Shown piece by piece: positions 15,064-55,884 of a stretch of DNA of 64,000 nt. Under the pieces are notes generated by a model. It ran no database searches. It was not told the origin of the DNA and saw only the letters and a list, made by a program, of their open reading frames with translations. This DNA is from Caulobacter sp. GTDB taxonomy: Bacteria > Pseudomonadota > Alphaproteobacteria > Caulobacterales > Caulobacteraceae. How positions within the stretch are numbered: position 1 is the stretch's first letter; the number at the start of each line of letters is the position of its first letter. Both the position numbers and the translations under genes were made by a program. Location of the stretch: contig JAUSMJ010000048.1 of NCBI GenBank assembly GCA_030645575.1, positions 1 to 64,000 of the forward strand, read 5' to 3'.

Positions 15064-15933
15064 CTAGCTGGCGGCAGGCGGGGCCGCCGCCGCCCTCGGA
15101 ATCAGCAGCTCGTCGAACACGATCCGCCAGCCTTCCGGCCGCCGCTGCCAGACGCGCACGTAGTGGGCCTTCACCGGCGCGCCGTCCTTGTCCCAGCCCG
15201 CCGAGCCGTAGGTCCAGGCCATGTCGCCGGCGACCGAAACGCCGCCGCCCAGCGGGGCGAAGGCGATCTGTTTCGCGCGCCAGTCCAGTTCGGGACCGAA
15301 GGTCGCGCAGCCGGTCGCCGGCGCCATCGGCGAGGACTGGATCCGCCCGTCGCAGGCCAGCACCCTCAGATAGGCGGCCTTGCTGTCGGCCCTCGCCTCG
15401 ACGGCCAGCGCCGCTTCCGCCGCCTGGACCTTGCTGAACGCGCCTTCCGGATAGAGGCCCGGAACCTTCGGCATCGCCAGGAAGACGGGCGTCTCCCCGG
15501 GCCCGGGCGAGGCGGCGGGGTCGCTGCCCACGCCGCCGTCGAACACCCATTTCCAGCCGCCGTCGGCCTGTTTCTTCCAGACCGTGAAATAGTGGCCGCG
15601 CCGTTTGCCGCCGACGCTGTAGGGACCCGTGGTGAAGCCCAGATCGCCGGACGCGGCGATGCCGGCCCAGGTCGGCCACCATTCCAGCTTCGGCGCGTCG
15701 GGCGCATCGTCTGGCGAGGCCAGGAAGGTCTCGCGGGCGTTGACCGGGTCCGGCGTCATCAGGATGGCGTCCGGCGCCATGTGGGCGAGGAAGGATTTCT
15801 TGACGCCGAGCCGATAGCCGTCGGCGGCGAAGGCCCGTTCGGCCGCGACCACGGGGTCCGGCGTGACCGGCGCGACGGCGGCGGCGGCGGGCAGGGCCAT
15901 CGCGGCGGCGGCGAGGGCCAGGATCAGGCGCAT
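15064..15933 (-). CDS. Exported DUF4440/SnoaL-like protein
   Basis: A 289-residue protein with a signal peptide (MRLILALAAAAMALPAAAAVA). The mature part seems to hold two copies of a SnoaL/NTF2-like (DUF4440) domain. The first, about 25-150, contains VVAAERAFAADG, FLAHMAPDAILM and GDLGFTTGPYSV; the second, about 160-285, contains AEAALAVEARAD, GGVSVAGDMAWTYGS and HYVRVWQRRPEGWRIVFDELL. The paired 'G-D-x-x-x-T-x-G' strands are typical of this fold. No catalytic residues could be set. Start placed at the ATG directly before the signal peptide. Confidence 0.78.
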   Translation of the reverse strand: MRLILALAAAAMALPAAAAVAPVTPDPVVAAERAFAADGYRLGVKKSFLAHMAPDAILMTPDPVNARETFLASPDDAPDAPKLEWWPTWAGIAASGDLGFTTGPYSVGGKRRGHYFTVWKKQADGGWKWVFDGGVGSDPAASPGPGETPVFLAMPKVPGLYPEGAFSKVQAAEAALAVEARADSKAAYLRVLACDGRIQSSPMAPATGCATFGPELDWRAKQIAFAPLGGGVSVAGDMAWTYGSAGWDKDGAPVKAHYVRVWQRRPEGWRIVFDELLIPRAAAAPPAAS

Positions 15934-16036
15934 GTCGGTCTCCCGCAATTTCGTCGGCGAAGGCTACTCCCGAGACCGGTCCGCGCGGTATGAAATCGCG
16001 GTAAGACTTCACCGCCCAGGACGCCGGATCCCCAGG

Positions 16037-16774
16037 ATGAGCTTTTCGCAGGCCGAGGTCGAACGCTACGCCCGCCATCTGGTGCTGCGCGAGGTCGGCG
16101 GACCGGGGCAGCAGAGGCTGAAGGCCGCCAGCGTGCTGATGGTCGGGGCGGGCGGGCTCGGCGCGCCGGCGGCCCTCTATCTGGCGGCCGCCGGGGTCGG
16201 CCGGATCGGCCTTGTCGACCCGGACACGGTGGCCCTGTCCAATCTGCAGCGCCAGGTGCTCTACGCCACCACCGACGTCGGCCAGGCCAAGACGGCCGTG
16301 GCCGCCCGGCGACTGAGCGACCTCAATCCCGAGATCACGATCGAGACCCACCCGCTGGCCCTGACCGCCGGCAACGCCGCCGATCTGATCGCCGGCTACG
16401 ACCTGGTGCTGGACGGCACGGACGACTTCGCCACCCGTTTCGCCGTCTCCGACGCCTGCGTGGCGGCCGGCAAGACCCTGGTCAGCGGCGCGATCGCGCG
16501 CTGGACCGGTCAGGTCGGGGTGTTTGCCGGTCGCCCCTGCTACCGCTGCCTCGTTCCGGACATCCCGCCCGACGCGGAGACCTGCGCCGGCGTCGGGGTG
16601 GTCGGGGCGCTGGGCGGGGTGATCGGCTCGATGATGGCGCTGGAGGCGATCAAGCTCATCACCGGCGCGGGCCAGCCGCTGGCCGGCCGGCTGCTGATCT
16701 ACGACGCCCTGGCCGGCGAGACCCGCACGGTGCGGATTGGCGCCGACCCGGACTGCCCCGCCTGCGGCGCTTGA
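16037..16774 (+). CDS. moeB: HesA/MoeB/ThiF family adenylyltransferase
   Basis: E1-like enzyme that adenylates the C-terminal glycine of a small sulfur carrier (MoaD or ThiS). The 245-residue protein shows RYARHLVLREVGGPGQQRL, the ATP-binding VGAGGLGAPAALYLAAAG (about 36-53), VDPDTVALSNLQRQVL and the two halves of a zinc knot, CYRC and CPAC. There is no rhodanese domain. MoeB and ThiF are hard to separate on sequence; no thiamine or molybdopterin gene is nearby to decide. ATG 16037-16039 follows CCAGG. Confidence 0.85.
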   Translation: MSFSQAEVERYARHLVLREVGGPGQQRLKAASVLMVGAGGLGAPAALYLAAAGVGRIGLVDPDTVALSNLQRQVLYATTDVGQAKTAVAARRLSDLNPEITIETHPLALTAGNAADLIAGYDLVLDGTDDFATRFAVSDACVAAGKTLVSGAIARWTGQVGVFAGRPCYRCLVPDIPPDAETCAGVGVVGALGGVIGSMMALEAIKLITGAGQPLAGRLLIYDALAGETRTVRIGADPDCPACGA

Positions 16775-16826: not shown

Positions 16827-16908
16827 GGGGACATGTTCGCATTGCCCTTGCAATGCGTACGTGTCCCCGACCAGGAGCGCGTGGGAAACATGAAAAGTAC
16901 GTGTCCCT
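16827..16908 (-). repeat. REP palindromes (RAYT family), locus A
   Basis: On the minus strand: a full REP (16868 to 16827) reading GGGGACACGTAC, an inner stem with GCATTGC/GCAATGC, then GAACATGTCCCC. Upstream of it lies a variant beginning AGGGACACGTACTTTTCA (16908-16891). The arrangement of the two is copied in inverted order at 17669-17744. The dipeptidase reading frame is cut at the edge of this block. Confidence 0.85.
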
Positions 16909-16916
16909 GGTGGCTG

Positions 16917-17369
16917 CGCGACGCCTGCCGCGCGGAACTGGTCGATGGCGTCCAGATCGCCCTCCAGCATCTCGGCGGCTTCGAACGAATAGATGACGCC
17001 CAGCTTTCCGGTGGCCTTGGCCCGAGCGAAATCGGCGGCGGCGCCGATCTTCATATATACGTCCGGATTCAGGGCGATGGTCTTGTCGATGAGGGCGATG
17101 GACGCCGCCGTTTCGCCGCGTGACTCATTGCCCGATCCGCCGATGGTCAGTTTGGCCGCCGTCAGTCCGGACGCCCTGATGATGTCGCGCGTTTCCTGAT
17201 CCAGAGGCGTCTCCGGATCGATGGGCAGGATCAGGTTGCCGTTGATGACGATGGCGTCGCGATAAAGCCGCGAAGCCTCCGGGGTCGATGACCCGCGAGT
17301 CCCTCCGGCGCAGGCCGTCAGCGACGAAGCGGCGGCTGCGCCGATAAAGGCGCGACGCGTGGCGATCAT
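16917..17369 (-). pseudogene. Truncated membrane dipeptidase (peptidase M19), N-terminal 151 residues only
   Basis: From the ATG at 17367-17369 the frame encodes a lipoprotein-like signal (RRAFIGAAAASSLTACAGG) and then the start of a renal-dipeptidase-type protein: LYRDAIVINGNLILPIDPE, LTIGGSGNESRGETAASI and VIYSFEAAEMLEGDLDAIDQFRAAGVA. Intact relatives have about 400 residues. After residue 151 the frame runs straight into REP sequence and on antisense to moeB, ending at 16659. The metal-binding and C-terminal parts are absent, so the product is very likely dead. Confidence 0.85.
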
Positions 17370-17668
17370 GGGCAGGCGGGCTCCGGCGACGCGACAGGTG
17401 GACGGGAGCTCTTATCTCTGCCGTTCCCGTTTGCGTCCAATGAACTCTTGGACATGGTCTTTTCCGCGTTCGGTTTCATCCACGGCGGCGCACCTACGAT
17501 GCTCGACCCTGGGGGTCGCCAGACCACGATTTTGAACGCCAAGCCTGCCGTAGGACCGGACATCCGGAAAGTCCGAGTGGGTGGATTGCGGACATGCGCC
17601 ATGGCATGGGACGGGCCGCCGCAGGGACGGGACCAGGGACGGGACCAGGGACGGGGACAGACAGGGAC
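17370..17668. other. Gap with a GAC-rich short tandem repeat
   Basis: No gene is supported between the dipeptidase remnant and the REP block. At 17623-17658 a 12-bp unit (AGGGACGGGACC) occurs two full times and a third partial time, then runs into the GGGGACAC start of the REP, as if the repeat grew from REP ends. The remainder (17370-17620) shows nothing I recognise. Confidence 0.55.
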
Positions 17669-17744
17669 GGGGACACGTACTTTTCAGGTACATGAACAAC
17701 CGCTGGACGGGGACACGTACCGGCTGGCGCCGGAACATGTCCCC
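17669..17744 (+). repeat. REP palindromes (RAYT family), locus B
   Basis: A variant copy (GGGGACACGTACTTTTCA, from 17669) is followed at 17709-17744 by a full REP: GGGGACACGTACCGGC, loop, GCCGGAACATGTCCCC. The same variant-plus-full pair occurs inverted at 16827-16908. It lies 85 bp before the RAYT start codon. Confidence 0.88.
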
Positions 17745-17770
17745 GGGGGCACAGCCGCATGGGTTGCGGC

Positions 17771-17802
17771 TTGACGCAATGTGAACAAACAGCGAACATA
17801 TG
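17771..17802 (+). promoter_or_regulatory. Probable RAYT promoter with a LexA-box-like direct repeat
   Basis: TTGACG at 17771-17776 is a good -35 hexamer; GAACAT (17794-17799) or the overlapping CATATG could serve as -10. Between them GAAC (17783-17786) and GAAC (17794-17797) are spaced by exactly 7 bases. GAAC-N7-GAAC is the reverse-strand reading of GTTC-N7-GTTC, the LexA box known from alphaproteobacteria. LexA bound here would block the promoter. Confidence 0.5.
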
Positions 17803-17828
17803 TGCGGCTCAACAGGATGGAGGCCGCC

Positions 17829-18452
17829 ATGGGCAGGAAGGCCCGCATCGTCGCGCCGGGGGTTCCGCACCATGTGACCCAGCGCGGCAACCGGCGTCAG
17901 GCGACCTTCCTGCGCGCGGCGGACTATCTGTCCTACCTCCAGCTGGCCGGCGAGGCGTTCGCCGAGGCCGGGGTCCAGGTCTGGTGCTGGTGTCTGATGC
18001 CCAACCACGTGCATCTGATCGCCACCCCGCCGGACGAGGGCGCGCTGGCCAGGGCCGTCGGCCTGACCCATTTGCGCTACACCCGGCTGATCAACGGCCG
18101 CGAGCGCTGGACGGGCTACCTGTGGCAGGGCCGGTTCGCCTCGTTCCCGATGGACGAGGACTATCTGCGGCAGTGCGTGCGTTACGTCGGCCTGAACCCG
18201 GTTCGCGCCGGTCTTGTCGAGCGCGCGGTCGACTGGCCGTGGTCGAGCGTGCGGGCGCATCTTGGGCGGGGAACCGATCCGCTGCTGACGCCGGGGCCGG
18301 TGGCGACGCTGCTCGGCGACGGGGCGGACGGCTTCTTCGACGTCGATCTGGCCGAGGAGGCGCAACGCAAACTGCGCAGGGCGTGCCGCAGCGGCCGGCC
18401 GCTTGGCGCGGCGGACTGGGTCAAGGCGCTGGATCGGGCGCCGGGCAATTGA
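17829..18452 (+). CDS. REP-associated tyrosine transposase (RAYT, IS200/IS605-like Y1 family)
   Basis: A 207-residue HUH single-strand transposase. The HUH metal motif is NHVH (His 60, His 62) within WCWCLMPNHVHLIATPPDEG, and the conserved RAYT segment QCVRYVGLNPVRAGLVERAVDWPWSS follows, with the likely nucleophile Tyr at about 119. The N-terminus GVPHHVTQRGNRRQ is also typical. The ATG at 17829 has GGAGG before it; an earlier GTG would lie in the promoter. REP copies stand at its 5' side (17669-17744) and right after its stop (18454-18488), the hallmark of RAYT loci. The gene looks intact. Confidence 0.93.
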   Translation: MGRKARIVAPGVPHHVTQRGNRRQATFLRAADYLSYLQLAGEAFAEAGVQVWCWCLMPNHVHLIATPPDEGALARAVGLTHLRYTRLINGRERWTGYLWQGRFASFPMDEDYLRQCVRYVGLNPVRAGLVERAVDWPWSSVRAHLGRGTDPLLTPGPVATLLGDGADGFFDVDLAEEAQRKLRRACRSGRPLGAADWVKALDRAPGN

Positions 18453-18453
18453 C

Positions 18454-18488
18454 GGGGACACGTACCGGCTTCGCCGGAACATGTCCCC
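18454..18488 (+). repeat. REP palindrome (RAYT family), locus C
   Basis: GGGGACACGTACCGGC, loop TTC, GCCGGAACATGTCCCC. It starts one base after the RAYT stop codon and ends 7 bases before the stop of the convergent dehydrogenase gene, so it may also act as a shared terminator-like stem. Confidence 0.92.
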
Positions 18489-18494
18489 GGCGCC

Positions 18495-19481
18495 CTACAG
18501 CATCGCCGGGATAACCCGGTCAGGCGGCCTGTGCCCGTCCATGAAGGTCTTGATGTTGACGATGACCTTCTCGCCCATGTCAATGCGGCCCTCGACCGTG
18601 GCCGAGCCCATGTGCGGCAGCAGGACCACGTTGGGCAGCTTGAGCAGCTTGGGATTGATCGCCGGCTCGTGCTCGTAGACGTCCAGGCCGGCGCCGGCGA
18701 TCTCGCCGCGGGCCAGCATGTTGGCCAGGGCGCCCTCGTCGATGACCTCGCCGCGGGCGGTGTTGACGATCACGGCGGTCGGCTGCAGCAGCTTCAGCCG
18801 GCGGGCCGACAGCAGGTGGTAGGTGGCCGGGGTGTGCGGGCAGTTGATGGAGACGATGTCCATCCGCGCCAGCATCTGGTCCAGGCTCTCCCAGTAGGTC
18901 GCCTCCAGCTCCTCGGCCACGCGCGGGCTGACGGGTTTGCGGTTGTGATAGTGGATCGACAGGCCGAAGGCCTTGCCGCGTCGGGCCAGGGCCTGGCCGA
19001 TGCGGCCCATGCCGATGATGCCCAGCCGCTTGCCCCACAGGCGGCGGCCCAGCATCCAGGTCGGCGACCAGCCCTGGAAGCCGCCGGTCTGCACGACGTT
19101 GGCGCCTTCGACGATGCGCCGGGTCGAGGCCATGATCAGGCTCATGGTCAGGTCGGCCGTGTCCTCGGTCAGCACGCCCGGGGTGTTGGTGACGATGACG
19201 CCGCGCTGGTTGGCGGTGGTCACGTCGATGTTATCGACCCCGGCCCCGAAATTGGCGATCAGCTTCAGCCGGTCGCCGGCCCGCGACAGCAGGCGCGAGT
19301 CCAGCCGGTCGGTGATGGTCGGCACCAGAACGTCGCAGCGACTCATGGCCTCGACCAGCTCGTCGGGCGACATGGGGTGGTCATCGACATTGAGTTCGGT
19401 GTCGAAAAGCTCCCGCATCCGGGTTTCCACCGGATCGGGCAGCTTGCGCGTGACGATGACTTTCGGCTTCTTGGCGGCCAT
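18495..19481 (-). CDS. 2-hydroxyacid dehydrogenase (glyoxylate/hydroxypyruvate reductase type)
   Basis: NAD(P)-dependent D-2-hydroxyacid dehydrogenase, 328 residues from ATG 19479-19481 (MAAKKPKVIVTRKLPDPVE). The Rossmann motif is GIIGMGRIGQALARRGKAFG, and the catalytic triad appears in order: Arg in VNTARGEVIDEGAL, Glu in DVYEHEPAINP and His in VLLPHMGSAT. The sequence style fits GyaR-type glyoxylate reductases. A longer in-frame upstream extension has Pro/Arg-rich sequence and is rejected. It is divergent from the SH3 lipoprotein gene. Confidence 0.9.
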   Translation of the reverse strand: MAAKKPKVIVTRKLPDPVETRMRELFDTELNVDDHPMSPDELVEAMSRCDVLVPTITDRLDSRLLSRAGDRLKLIANFGAGVDNIDVTTANQRGVIVTNTPGVLTEDTADLTMSLIMASTRRIVEGANVVQTGGFQGWSPTWMLGRRLWGKRLGIIGMGRIGQALARRGKAFGLSIHYHNRKPVSPRVAEELEATYWESLDQMLARMDIVSINCPHTPATYHLLSARRLKLLQPTAVIVNTARGEVIDEGALANMLARGEIAGAGLDVYEHEPAINPKLLKLPNVVLLPHMGSATVEGRIDMGEKVIVNIKTFMDGHRPPDRVIPAML

Positions 19482-19590
19482 GGACGCTTTCGATAACGGC
19501 GTTGGCCCCTCGGGGGGTCGTCGCACCCTTAGCAAAGGCCCGGCGGGGGGCCAAGCGAAGCTGCGACTTCCGAGGGCCACAGATTGGTCA

Positions 19591-20103
19591 TTGCCGACAA
19601 AGTTGGCGGTCCTGGCGGCCGTTCTGGCCCTCGCCGGCTGCGGTGGGCGGGGCGCGCAGGTCTGCGACACGCCCTCGGGCCTGCCCGTGCCGCGCTTCGT
19701 CTCGCTGAAGTTCGGCGAGGTCTACGCCCGCAAGGGGCCGGGCGAGGATCACCGCATCCTGTGGGTCTGGCGCTCGAGGGGCATGCCGCTGGAGGTGGTC
19801 GCCGAGACCAGCGACTGGCGGCGCGTGCGCGGGCCGGACGGCGCGCTGGCCTGGGCCCACAAGCGCGGACTGGACGGCCGGCTGACGGTCATGCGCGTCA
19901 AGCCCGGACAGCTGCCCATGCGCGCCGCGCCGAAGGCCGACGCGCGGGTGGTCGCCTATCTGGCGCCCAGCGCCGTCGCCGCGCTCGACCAGAGCGAGGG
20001 CGGCTGGCGGCGGATCAAGGCCTCGGGCGAGGCCGGCTGGGTCCCGGCCGGCGAGGTCTGGGGCGCCGGCGCGCCCACACCCTGCCGTCCGCGCGAAGAT
20101 TGA
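19591..20103 (+). CDS. SH3-domain lipoprotein
   Basis: A 170-residue protein starting at TTG 19591 (MPTKLAVLAAVLALAGC), which gives a short signal peptide ending in the lipobox LALAGC. After it come two bacterial SH3-like repeats: FVSLKFGEVYARKGPGEDHRILW...DWRRVRGPDGALAWAHKRGL and MRVKPGQLPMRAAPKADARVVAYLAPSAVAALDQSEGGWRRIKASGEAGWVPAGEVWG. This is the layout of alphaproteobacterial SH3 proteins thought to bind cell wall. No ATG fits in frame, so the TTG start is inferred from the signal peptide. It precedes fabA by 68 bp. Confidence 0.82.
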   Translation: MPTKLAVLAAVLALAGCGGRGAQVCDTPSGLPVPRFVSLKFGEVYARKGPGEDHRILWVWRSRGMPLEVVAETSDWRRVRGPDGALAWAHKRGLDGRLTVMRVKPGQLPMRAAPKADARVVAYLAPSAVAALDQSEGGWRRIKASGEAGWVPAGEVWGAGAPTPCRPRED

Positions 20104-38451: not shown

Positions 38452-38493
38452 GGGGAACACGTACGGATTGCCGCGCAATCCGAACATGTCCCC
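38452..38493 (+). repeat. REP palindrome (RAYT family), locus D
   Basis: GGGGAACACGTACGGATTG, short loop, CAATCCGAACATGTCCCC. The outer bases are those of the REPs around the RAYT gene at 17829, with a different inner stem (GGATTG/CAATCC). It stands between the pilus operon and the MHYT gene. Confidence 0.85.
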
Positions 38494-54876: not shown

Positions 54877-54910
54877 GGAGGGCTGCTACACAGCCGCTTT
54901 CACTTGATCC

Positions 54911-55033
54911 GTCATGGCCCGACTTGTTCGGGCCAACCATGCGTGGTGAGTCAACAGGACTGACCCGGACGAGCCCGCTCCCACCAAGCCAGGTGCGGTG
55001 TTCATGGGTGGCCCGAACAAGTCGGGCCATGAC
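54911..55033. repeat. BIME: second copy of the GTCATGGCCCG repeat pair
   Basis: Arms 54911-54941 (GTCATGGCCCGACTTG..., ending CCATGCG) and 55013-55033 (ending GGGCCATGAC) face each other as at 30981-31090, but enclose a different, longer middle. It lies between two convergent genes. Confidence 0.78.
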
Positions 55034-55052
55034 GGGATTTGTAGGATCAGGA

Positions 55053-55736
55053 TCAGCACTTGTCGGAGACACGTACCGGCTGCGCCGGAACATGTCCCCT
55101 TGCCGCCCCGACCACCCCCACGCAGATCAGCAGCTGGCCGAGATAGTAGGGGACCCAGACCGCCAGGCCGGTGAGGAAGGTGTCCGGCAGCGGGCCCATC
55201 TTGGCGAAGATCACCAGGTCGCTGACCAGGAACATCAGCGCGCCGATCCCGACCGTGAAGCGCGGGAAGCGGCTGGTCCAGGCGGTCGCCGCCATCAGCG
55301 ACAGGCCGAGCGTGTAGAAGGCCACGCCCGGCGCGGCGGCCCGGTCGGCCGGCAGCATGAAGGCGATGAACACCGTCGCGGGGACCAGCAGCAGCGCGAG
55401 CGCCAGCTGGCTGCGACCCAGGGCGGGGCGGCGATTTGTCAGGTACAGCCCGATCGCGACGGCATGGCCGATCAGGAAGGCCACGGCGCCGACGATGAAC
55501 TGGACGCCCAGCAGCACGTCGCCCAGGACGCCCAGGGTCATCACCGCCGTCAGCAGCCAGCCGTCGCGATTCCGCGCCTTGAGCGCCGCATGGACCGCCA
55601 GCAGGCCGACGCCCGAGCCCTTCCAGGCCAGTTCCAGCGGCGCGGGCAGACCCATCCGCCAGGCGGCGATGTAGCTGACGCCGCCGAGGATCGAGCCGAT
55701 CAGCACCCAGCGGGCCGCCGTGTCGCGTGTTGTCAT
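55053..55736 (-). CDS. YhhN/TMEM86-family membrane protein (lysoplasmalogenase-like)
   Basis: A 227-residue inner-membrane protein with about eight helices: WVLIGSILGGVSYIAAWRMGL, AWKGSGVGLLAVHAALKARNRDGWLLTAVMTLGVLGDVLLG, AVAFLIGHAVAIGLYLTN and VGIGALMFLVSDLVIFAKMG. The conserved Lys-Gly, L-G-D and S-D motifs are those of the YhhN family, whose animal members are lysoplasmalogenases. The last 13 codons, after VGAARG, come from a RAYT-family REP (55064-55099) that also led to the present stop codon. Confidence 0.85.
   Translation of the reverse strand: MTTRDTAARWVLIGSILGGVSYIAAWRMGLPAPLELAWKGSGVGLLAVHAALKARNRDGWLLTAVMTLGVLGDVLLGVQFIVGAVAFLIGHAVAIGLYLTNRRPALGRSQLALALLLVPATVFIAFMLPADRAAAPGVAFYTLGLSLMAATAWTSRFPRFTVGIGALMFLVSDLVIFAKMGPLPDTFLTGLAVWVPYYLGQLLICVGVVGAARGHVPAQPVRVSDKC
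55064..55099 (+). repeat. REP palindrome (RAYT family), locus E
   Basis: CGGAGACACGTACCGGC, loop, GCCGGAACATGTCCCC: one base (A for G) differs from the full REP. It overlaps the 3' end of the YhhN-family gene. Confidence 0.88.
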
Positions 55737-55884
55737 GAGTGTTCCCCCGCCCCGCCCCTGAATGCCCGGTTTGTCGCGGCGAAAAAAGCCCCGACCAGCG
55801 CGCGGGGCGGATAGACTGGTCTGGATCAATCCGGGGGCCGGCGCTGGGCGCTAACCTGACCGGGAAAACGCCAGGGAGGGCGGC

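Follow-up and report, generated by a model that had tools for sequence, protein, structure and literature searches.

TIRYT elements, also termed TIRtrons, consist of a Y1 transposase bordered by repeats with the consensus GGGGWSAS, and some of these TIR families, for example that of ORF 1152 of S. maltophilia, are partly or wholly self-complementary and are repeated in the genome (Di Nocera et al. 2013, PMC3733652). In the accessible text of that paper, the word Caulobacter is unmatched, and the one mention of C. crescentus concerns other (CGTC) repeats, which are not linked with transposases. Subclass 2.1 of the TnpA_Y1 transposases has been tentatively equated with the TIRYTs; its members have an additional C-terminal domain with similarity to HTH domains, and the available portions of the source report no REP-like sequences near them (PMC6006769). 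For the TnpA_REP enzyme of E. coli it matters that a bulge in the hairpin is unpaired, and the upper stem can be exchanged, according to the accessible parts of PMC8266576. How REPs originate, and whether their populations need the transposase, are questions that the clade considered here addresses, as it offers TIR-bearing, hairpin-bearing and enzyme-less relatives together in a genus with good genetics.

Here we analyse a 64,000-nucleotide stretch of Caulobacter DNA (the window), together with the genome from which it comes and its relatives; G, C and L numbers are our handles for genomes, contigs and loci. The observation is real: among TIRYT-like elements, this locus represents a variant that forms REPs, with an activity that is predicted from sequence. 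No description of this system was met in the literature on Caulobacter REPs, TIRYTs/TIRtrons and REPINs/RAYTs, as far as that literature is openly accessible.

A Y1 transposase bordered by hairpins of one family

An initial sequence-only reading of the window had proposed an intact RAYT transposase bordered on both sides by REPs of one family. This was borne out: the transposase gene lies between the class A hairpins that begin at 17709 and 18454 (Table 1). The encoded protein matches the Pfam Y1_Tnp family with 37.1 bits, against a cut-off of 23, and contains the motifs NHVH and YVGLNP, the latter providing the Y...NP signature of the Y1/HUH domain. PDB entry 4er8 (TnpA_REP) matches it with an E value of 2e-8. 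The score against the NCBIfam model NF047646 (REP_Tyr_transpos) is 76.6 bits, below the cut-off of 80 that is exceeded by the relatives L147 (82.8 bits) and L030 (82.2 bits), and a domain scan of nine proteins gave no match to an HTH C-terminal domain at an E value of 0.1. Because an HTH is not detectable and the score falls just under the REP_Tyr_transpos cut-off, we call the enzyme TIRYT-like and not a proven member of subclass 2.1. It looks nearer to the TIRYT enzymes than to the classical GTAG RAYTs.

Table 1. Position, strand and character of the features of the window
Feature	Coordinates	Strand	Remarks
ThiF-family gene	15863..16774	+	Flank; boundary of inserted stretch
Class A hairpin	16827..16868	-	Covariance model; long inner stem GCATTGC/GCAATGC, reversed
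Half-site AGGGACACGTACTTTTCATGTTTCC	16884..16908	-	Inverted relative to half-site at 17669; only first arm well kept
Truncated membrane dipeptidase gene (Peptidase_M19)	16911..17369	-	Pfam PF01244, 35.7 bits; between the two half-sites
Half-site GGGGACACGTACTTTTCAGGTACATGAAC	17669..17697	+	Plain-TIR layout; only first arm well kept
Class A hairpin	17709..17744	+	Covariance model; upstream of transposase, inner stem CGGC/GCCG
Y1/HUH single-strand transposase gene (TIRYT-like RAYT)	17829..18452	+	207 aa; ORF 17829-18449, stop 18450-18452
Class A hairpin	18454..18488	+	Covariance model; one base after transposase stop codon
D-2-hydroxyacid dehydrogenase ORF	18495..19670	-	True start probably near 19480; boundary of inserted stretch
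Class A hairpin	38452..38493	+	Covariance model; long inner stem GGATTGC/GCAATCC, one inserted A in foot
Class A hairpin	55065..55099	+	Covariance model; one G to A change, overlaps 3' end of opposite-strand ORF

Where the same reading had counted six loci in 64 kb, we find five full copies and two half-sites, one on each strand. The more distant copies that it had placed at 38452-38493 and 55064-55099 are both present, the second starting one base later. When a covariance model was scored at every position of the window, the five hairpins gave E values of 2e-13 to 1e-10; the next five rows repeated these sites as read on the opposite strand, and among unrelated rows the best E value was 0.39. 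As all five belong to the training set of the model, these scores show separation from background and not discovery. The half-site at 17669 and the hairpin at 17709 make up a 76-nt unit, which recurs with 91-92% likeness on contigs C5 and C74 and in genome G166.

Repeats of other kinds lie close by. Just upstream of the half-site at 17669, positions 17622-17660 hold three tandem copies of the 12-bp unit CAGGGACGGGAC, the third imperfect, and at 54900-55045 inverted copies of TGGCCCGACTTGTTCGGGCCA adjoin the hairpin at 55065. The ORF at 55053-55829 (- strand), YhhN-like as judged by eye, ends inside that hairpin, and roughly its final dozen codons consist of hairpin sequence.

Fold and covariation of the class A hairpins

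Folded as single strands, the three copies of the window whose foot is intact have seven base pairs in the foot, followed by a C.A mismatch at position 8, two base pairs, an A.A mismatch at position 11 and the inner stem; each of the remaining two has one extra flaw in the foot. On the complementary strand the C.A mismatch becomes a G.T wobble, which is paired in the computed folds and would give the two strands different shapes.

Covariation was examined in 12 copies from three genomes (eight from the window's own genome, G000, three from G047 and one from G043). Across this set 98.4% of the stem cells are paired, and changes on both sides of a pair occur in 25 cells, compared with a mean of 8.2 after shuffling (0 of 500 shuffles as high); all of them fall in the inner stem. 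The proposal that the outer arms are kept while the inner stem covaries thus holds, with the proviso that most copies were found through exact outer arms, a search that favours intact arms and partly builds in their invariance. The further idea that the enzyme reads only the outer half would fit the covariation, and the fixed mismatches appear at least as good a candidate for recognition.

The hairpins have no GTAG (GTRG) foot. The bases preceding the foot are GTC, GAC or ATC in nine class A copies of the own genome, GCA at C60:5860 and AAC at C74:30565. A classical GTAG RAYT was therefore rejected. The conserved stem foot, GGGGACAC, fits the GGGGWSAS flanking-repeat consensus, and we suggest that the TIRYT branch may owe its 'no REPs' label to searches for GTAG-footed hairpins.

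Four hairpin classes in the genome

The survey was extended to the whole 3.2-Mb Caulobacter genome, in 83 contigs. The exact class A pattern was found seven times and its reversed control not at all, and the general pattern GGGGACAS..TGTCCCC gave 66+57 rows (123) against 1+1 (2) for its reversed control, a fully symmetrical palindrome being counted on both strands. The enrichment beyond the window that the sequence-only reading had asked for is thus present. These counts bear directly on the simplest alternative, that the hairpins are chance palindromes in GC-rich DNA. Short half-motifs with two mismatches are indeed common by chance, with a mean of 4.9 per shuffled window, but the window itself holds 12 such degenerate half-motifs, a number reached in 0 of 100 shuffles, and the control counts (123 against 2; class A, 7 against 0) refute the idea, to which we attach a negligible probability.

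A catalogue of at least 145 copies was drawn from 100 of the 123 general-pattern rows, 100 of the 102 rows of a class B search and the 150 candidates scored out of 2283; classes were assigned by eye, and one reverse-strand duplicate row and the symmetrical C63 palindrome were dropped. It comprises four related classes, with at least 14 copies of class A, at least 100 of class B (28 nt; GGGGACACGCACTGAAGTGCATGTCCCC and near variants), at least 16 of class C (32 nt) and at least 14 of class D (29-30 nt), and one other copy. Class B is the largest family; class A makes up a small share and consists mostly of single copies. Hairpins that lie close together, whatever their class, are arranged reverse-then-forward in 50 of 51 pairs, which is the REPIN layout of two inverted REPs forming a unit. 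Among the catalogued copies, 74 of 100 in class B, 14 of 16 in class C and 11 of 14 in class D belong to doublets, against only 2 of 14 in class A. The inner stem and loop are identical in three class A copies that lie on different contigs. In several class B copies the outermost G-C pair is replaced by A-T on both sides (AGGG...CCCT), a compensated change with a repeated asymmetry within doublets.

Matching hairpins on the two sides of a transposase

The genome contains three Y1 genes: that of the window, on contig C51, one on C43 whose product is 70% identical to the window protein, and one on C4 (53%). A whole-element insertion sequence of the IS200/IS605 kind was rejected, since near-identical mobile copies are absent and the three genes are divergent. 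The C43 enzyme is bordered on both sides by class B hairpins, and its sister in another Caulobacter bin (69% identical, tree fork supported at 93/85) has a class B hairpin too. The C4 transposase (L016, with which L084 was grouped) has a different type of palindrome on both sides, for example GGGACAAGCTGTCCCTTGGGACTGCTTGTC; a palindrome similar to this one lies at C21:34043 and another in G111. The Caulobacter genome thus holds three related enzymes of this kind, at least two of which adjoin their own family of intergenic hairpins.

A scan of 106 loci found 11 distinct ones with a hairpin on each side. When the arms that agree best between the two sides are compared, all seven bases after GGGGAC are identical in each of the 11. 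When sides were shuffled between loci and compared by the same rule, the mean number of differences was 3.1, and none of 20,000 shuffles was as low.

Of the original description of a full REP-RAYT pair in a Caulobacter-like genome, the matching hairpins on both sides, the genome-wide enrichment and the assignment to Caulobacter stand. Two parts are altered: the enzyme is nearer to the TIRYTs than to a classical RAYT, and the hairpin family of the window (class A, at least 14 copies) is minor compared with the class B family (at least 100) of a second transposase.

Plain TIRs and hairpins among relatives

Inspection of the flanks of related transposase genes revealed a matched inverted repeat with a GG[GT]GAC or GGGAC core at 64 of 107 loci; as a control, 316 draws that combined flanks of different loci gave an equally strong inverted repeat, whatever its kind, in 26 cases. 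GGGGWSA occurs on both sides at 42 of 101 loci, and L185, with a short flank, was left out of the flank-repeat counts. The commonest layout, at 48 of 107 loci, is a plain TIR: the core is present and neither scan shows a hairpin. A typical plain TIR is AATTCCGGGGACACCATACTTAATT, placed some 50-100 bp from each gene end, as in the TIRYT layout.

On the tree of the enzymes, from which L025 (73 residues) was left out, hairpins are present in 20 of 105 rows; this distribution needs 13 changes, at least eight of them forced by well-supported branches, and shows clustering, since none of 500 shuffles gave so low a number. The label depends on the threshold, with L145, L148, L177, L216 and L031 labelled in one scan that is not the one used for the tree: a looser label, the union of both scans, gives 25 rows and 16 changes, and a label restricted to hairpins on both sides gives 12 rows and nine changes.

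Two intermediate forms occur: inverted TIR pairs of 64-77 nt, end to end, in G091, G047, G176 and G166, and 42-nt hairpins with C.A at position 8 in alphaproteobacterial bins (L173 and L177, Rhodospirillales; L181, Magnetovibrio). They fit a TIR pair that may have collapsed into a hairpin, and a similar central deletion has been suggested for double-foot REPs in the available text of PMC6006769.

Hairpin populations with and without an enzyme

We compared 149 genomes of the family, one per species, of which 30 have a homologue of the enzyme at an E value of 1e-10. The exact class A pattern is present in three of the 149 (G000, G047 and G043), all with a homologue. A homologue is found in seven of the ten genomes with at least four general-pattern rows (p 5e-4 against 30 of 149 overall) and in six of the eight with at least ten (p 9e-4), thresholds chosen after the counts were seen and p values that ignore kinship. 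In G022 the four rows come from two symmetrical sites next to the enzyme of that genome and so add nothing to the genome-wide link.

No Y1_Tnp match was obtained in G116 (60+61 hairpin rows), G111 (10+11) or G030 (4+1). These three genomes speak against strict pairing. The sequence-only reading had named, as a finding that would count against it, REP copies equally common in close relatives without any RAYT gene; the three genomes bear this out in part, while seven of ten REP-rich genomes do have a homologue. The rows of G116, a member of the same genus, are nearly perfect palindromes of the GGGGACAGGCGCATGCGCCTGTCCCC type and constitute an orphan REP population. In G111, two of 16 class B rows are exact, compared with 62 of 102 in the own genome (p 3e-4; 100 of the 102 rows are listed, and two of the 16 are one site read on both strands). 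Class B in G111 thus looks decayed, as would be expected if copies decay after loss of the enzyme.

The gene context of 57 copies in fetched stretches was assessed with a crude gene caller: 46 are intergenic, nine lie at a gene edge and two are inside genes. Those with called neighbours lie between convergent genes in 37 of 51 cases, the two members of a doublet being counted separately; among the gene junctions of the window the corresponding figure is 11 of 44. Such a setting would suit hairpins that serve as bidirectional terminators or mRNA-end stabilisers, held by selection at convergent gene ends, with the transposases as incidental users or captives; the stability of the stems and the persistence of a large population in G116, where Y1_Tnp has no match, point the same way. 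Nevertheless, in the listed copies no T run is seen by inspection in the eight bases after the hairpins, and the letter identity of 62 of the 102 class B rows, loops included, is not something that termination needs. Nor would termination account for the agreement between an enzyme's two sides (11 of 11) or for the single orientation of 50 of the 51 doublets. We therefore consider selection for such a function improbable as the explanation of the hairpins.

History of the locus

The stretch 16827-18488 occupies the place between the ThiF-family gene and the dehydrogenase gene. These two genes are adjacent in G116 and G082, and in G166, G167, G155, G186 and G111 they are separated by a gene that, judged by eye, resembles an alpha/beta hydrolase. 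In G166, whose assembly is 89% complete, the dehydrogenase is 99% identical, and a class A hairpin stands at the place of that at 18454 with no transposase there. This implies that at this site the hairpin predates the enzyme, whose locus arrived recently or is the product of a rearrangement. Searches by tblastn with the enzyme and with the M19 fragment gave no match in seven dehydrogenase-side stretches (G166, G167, G155, G186, G185, G111 and G169, the last not reaching the ThiF gene); L269 was too short for the neighbourhood comparison.

The M19 fragment keeps its start codon and sits between the inverted TIR-like half-sites at 16884-16908 and 17669-17697, as if it were a passenger. A DNA search, in which 14 of 215 candidates were scored, returned no second M19-like row for the own genome.

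DNA searches for class A covered 23 chosen genomes, with 14 candidates scored in each. G185 has at least 14 class A-like rows, all of hairpin size, and no close DNA match to the enzyme among the candidates scored. G166 has class A copies and a diverged transposase with a different hairpin, again with no close DNA match to the enzyme among its 14; with so few candidates scored per genome, absence of the enzyme from G185 and G166 is a weak result. In G169 a 66-residue remnant of a related enzyme is followed by two class A copies. From its presence in these three genomes, class A looks like an old family of the clade, one whose enzyme is intact in the window.

The same observations raise the alternative that class A is a dead family, on which the window enzyme no longer acts or never acted, and that the enzyme came to lie beside one hairpin by recombination. 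The G166 hairpin without an enzyme, the copies in G185, G166 and G169, the enzyme remnant upstream of the G169 copies and the mostly single state of class A (2 of 14 in doublets, among at least 14 catalogued) are what such a history would leave. It has to contend, however, with an intact enzyme that has class A hairpins on both sides and with the identity of inner stem and loop in three copies on different contigs. We judge it rather unlikely, though a good deal more plausible than selection for termination.

Proposed mechanism

The reading that we prefer, and think probably correct, places the locus among the TIR-associated Y1 transposases, as a TIRYT-like variant of about subclass 2.1/group 1 that forms REPs and would work as follows. 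Much as E. coli TnpA_REP does, the enzyme would bind one of the two strands, folded as a hairpin, by way of the GGGGACAC foot and of the C.A (and A.A) mismatch, which is fixed. This mode of recognition is proposed by analogy with TnpA_REP, for which it matters that the bulge is unpaired and the upper stem can be swapped; the earlier 'outer half only' comes close to it. The change from C.A to a G.T wobble on the complement would let the mismatch mark the correct strand, and the inner stem would be a structural arm that needs only to pair. The enzyme is predicted to cut and join single-stranded hairpin units, so that doublets would spread slowly into the gaps between genes. The hairpin itself may have originated through the collapse of an inverted pair of TIRs into a single short palindrome. 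Class A would then be an old, mostly single and near-relict family in this genome, and class B with the C43 enzyme a recently active population.

A broader proposal, which we hold to be evenly balanced, is that REPINs have had a second origin: inverted TIRs of the TIR branch would have collapsed repeatedly into mismatched hairpins recognised at the stem foot and not by a GTAG tetranucleotide, and in Caulobacter several REPIN populations would coexist, each with its own enzyme and decaying once that enzyme is lost.

Comparison with known systems

The comparisons that follow refer to the accessible text of the papers cited. The Caulobacter repeats known as CIR, of about 110 bp and bearing GANTC (PMC2229807), differ from the hairpins described here. 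REPINs (PMC8049555) are alike in their paired, inverted hairpins, single copies being read as remnants; the present elements have a different foot and belong to a different branch of enzymes. The REP/RAYT systems of TnpA_REP subclasses 2.2 and 2.5 (Corneloup et al. 2021, PMC8266576) share the HUH enzyme, the mismatched hairpins, the inverted doublets, and an upper stem and loop that are free to change, as they are here. They differ in that the GTAG foot is replaced here by conserved bases forming the stem foot GGGGACAC, and the enzyme is closer to its TIRYT relatives. With the TnpA_Y1 enzymes of subclass 2.1 (PMC6006769) the window protein has in common the NHVH, Y..LNP and SS signatures; unlike them, it was found with REPs on both sides, and an HTH was not found in it. 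The likeness to the TIRYTs/TIRtrons (PMC3733652) lies in a Y1 transposase with GGGGWSAS repeats, represented here by GGGGACAC. What sets the Caulobacter elements apart from these is their compact hairpins of 28-42 nt with a fixed C.A mismatch, in four classes and arranged as REPIN doublets.
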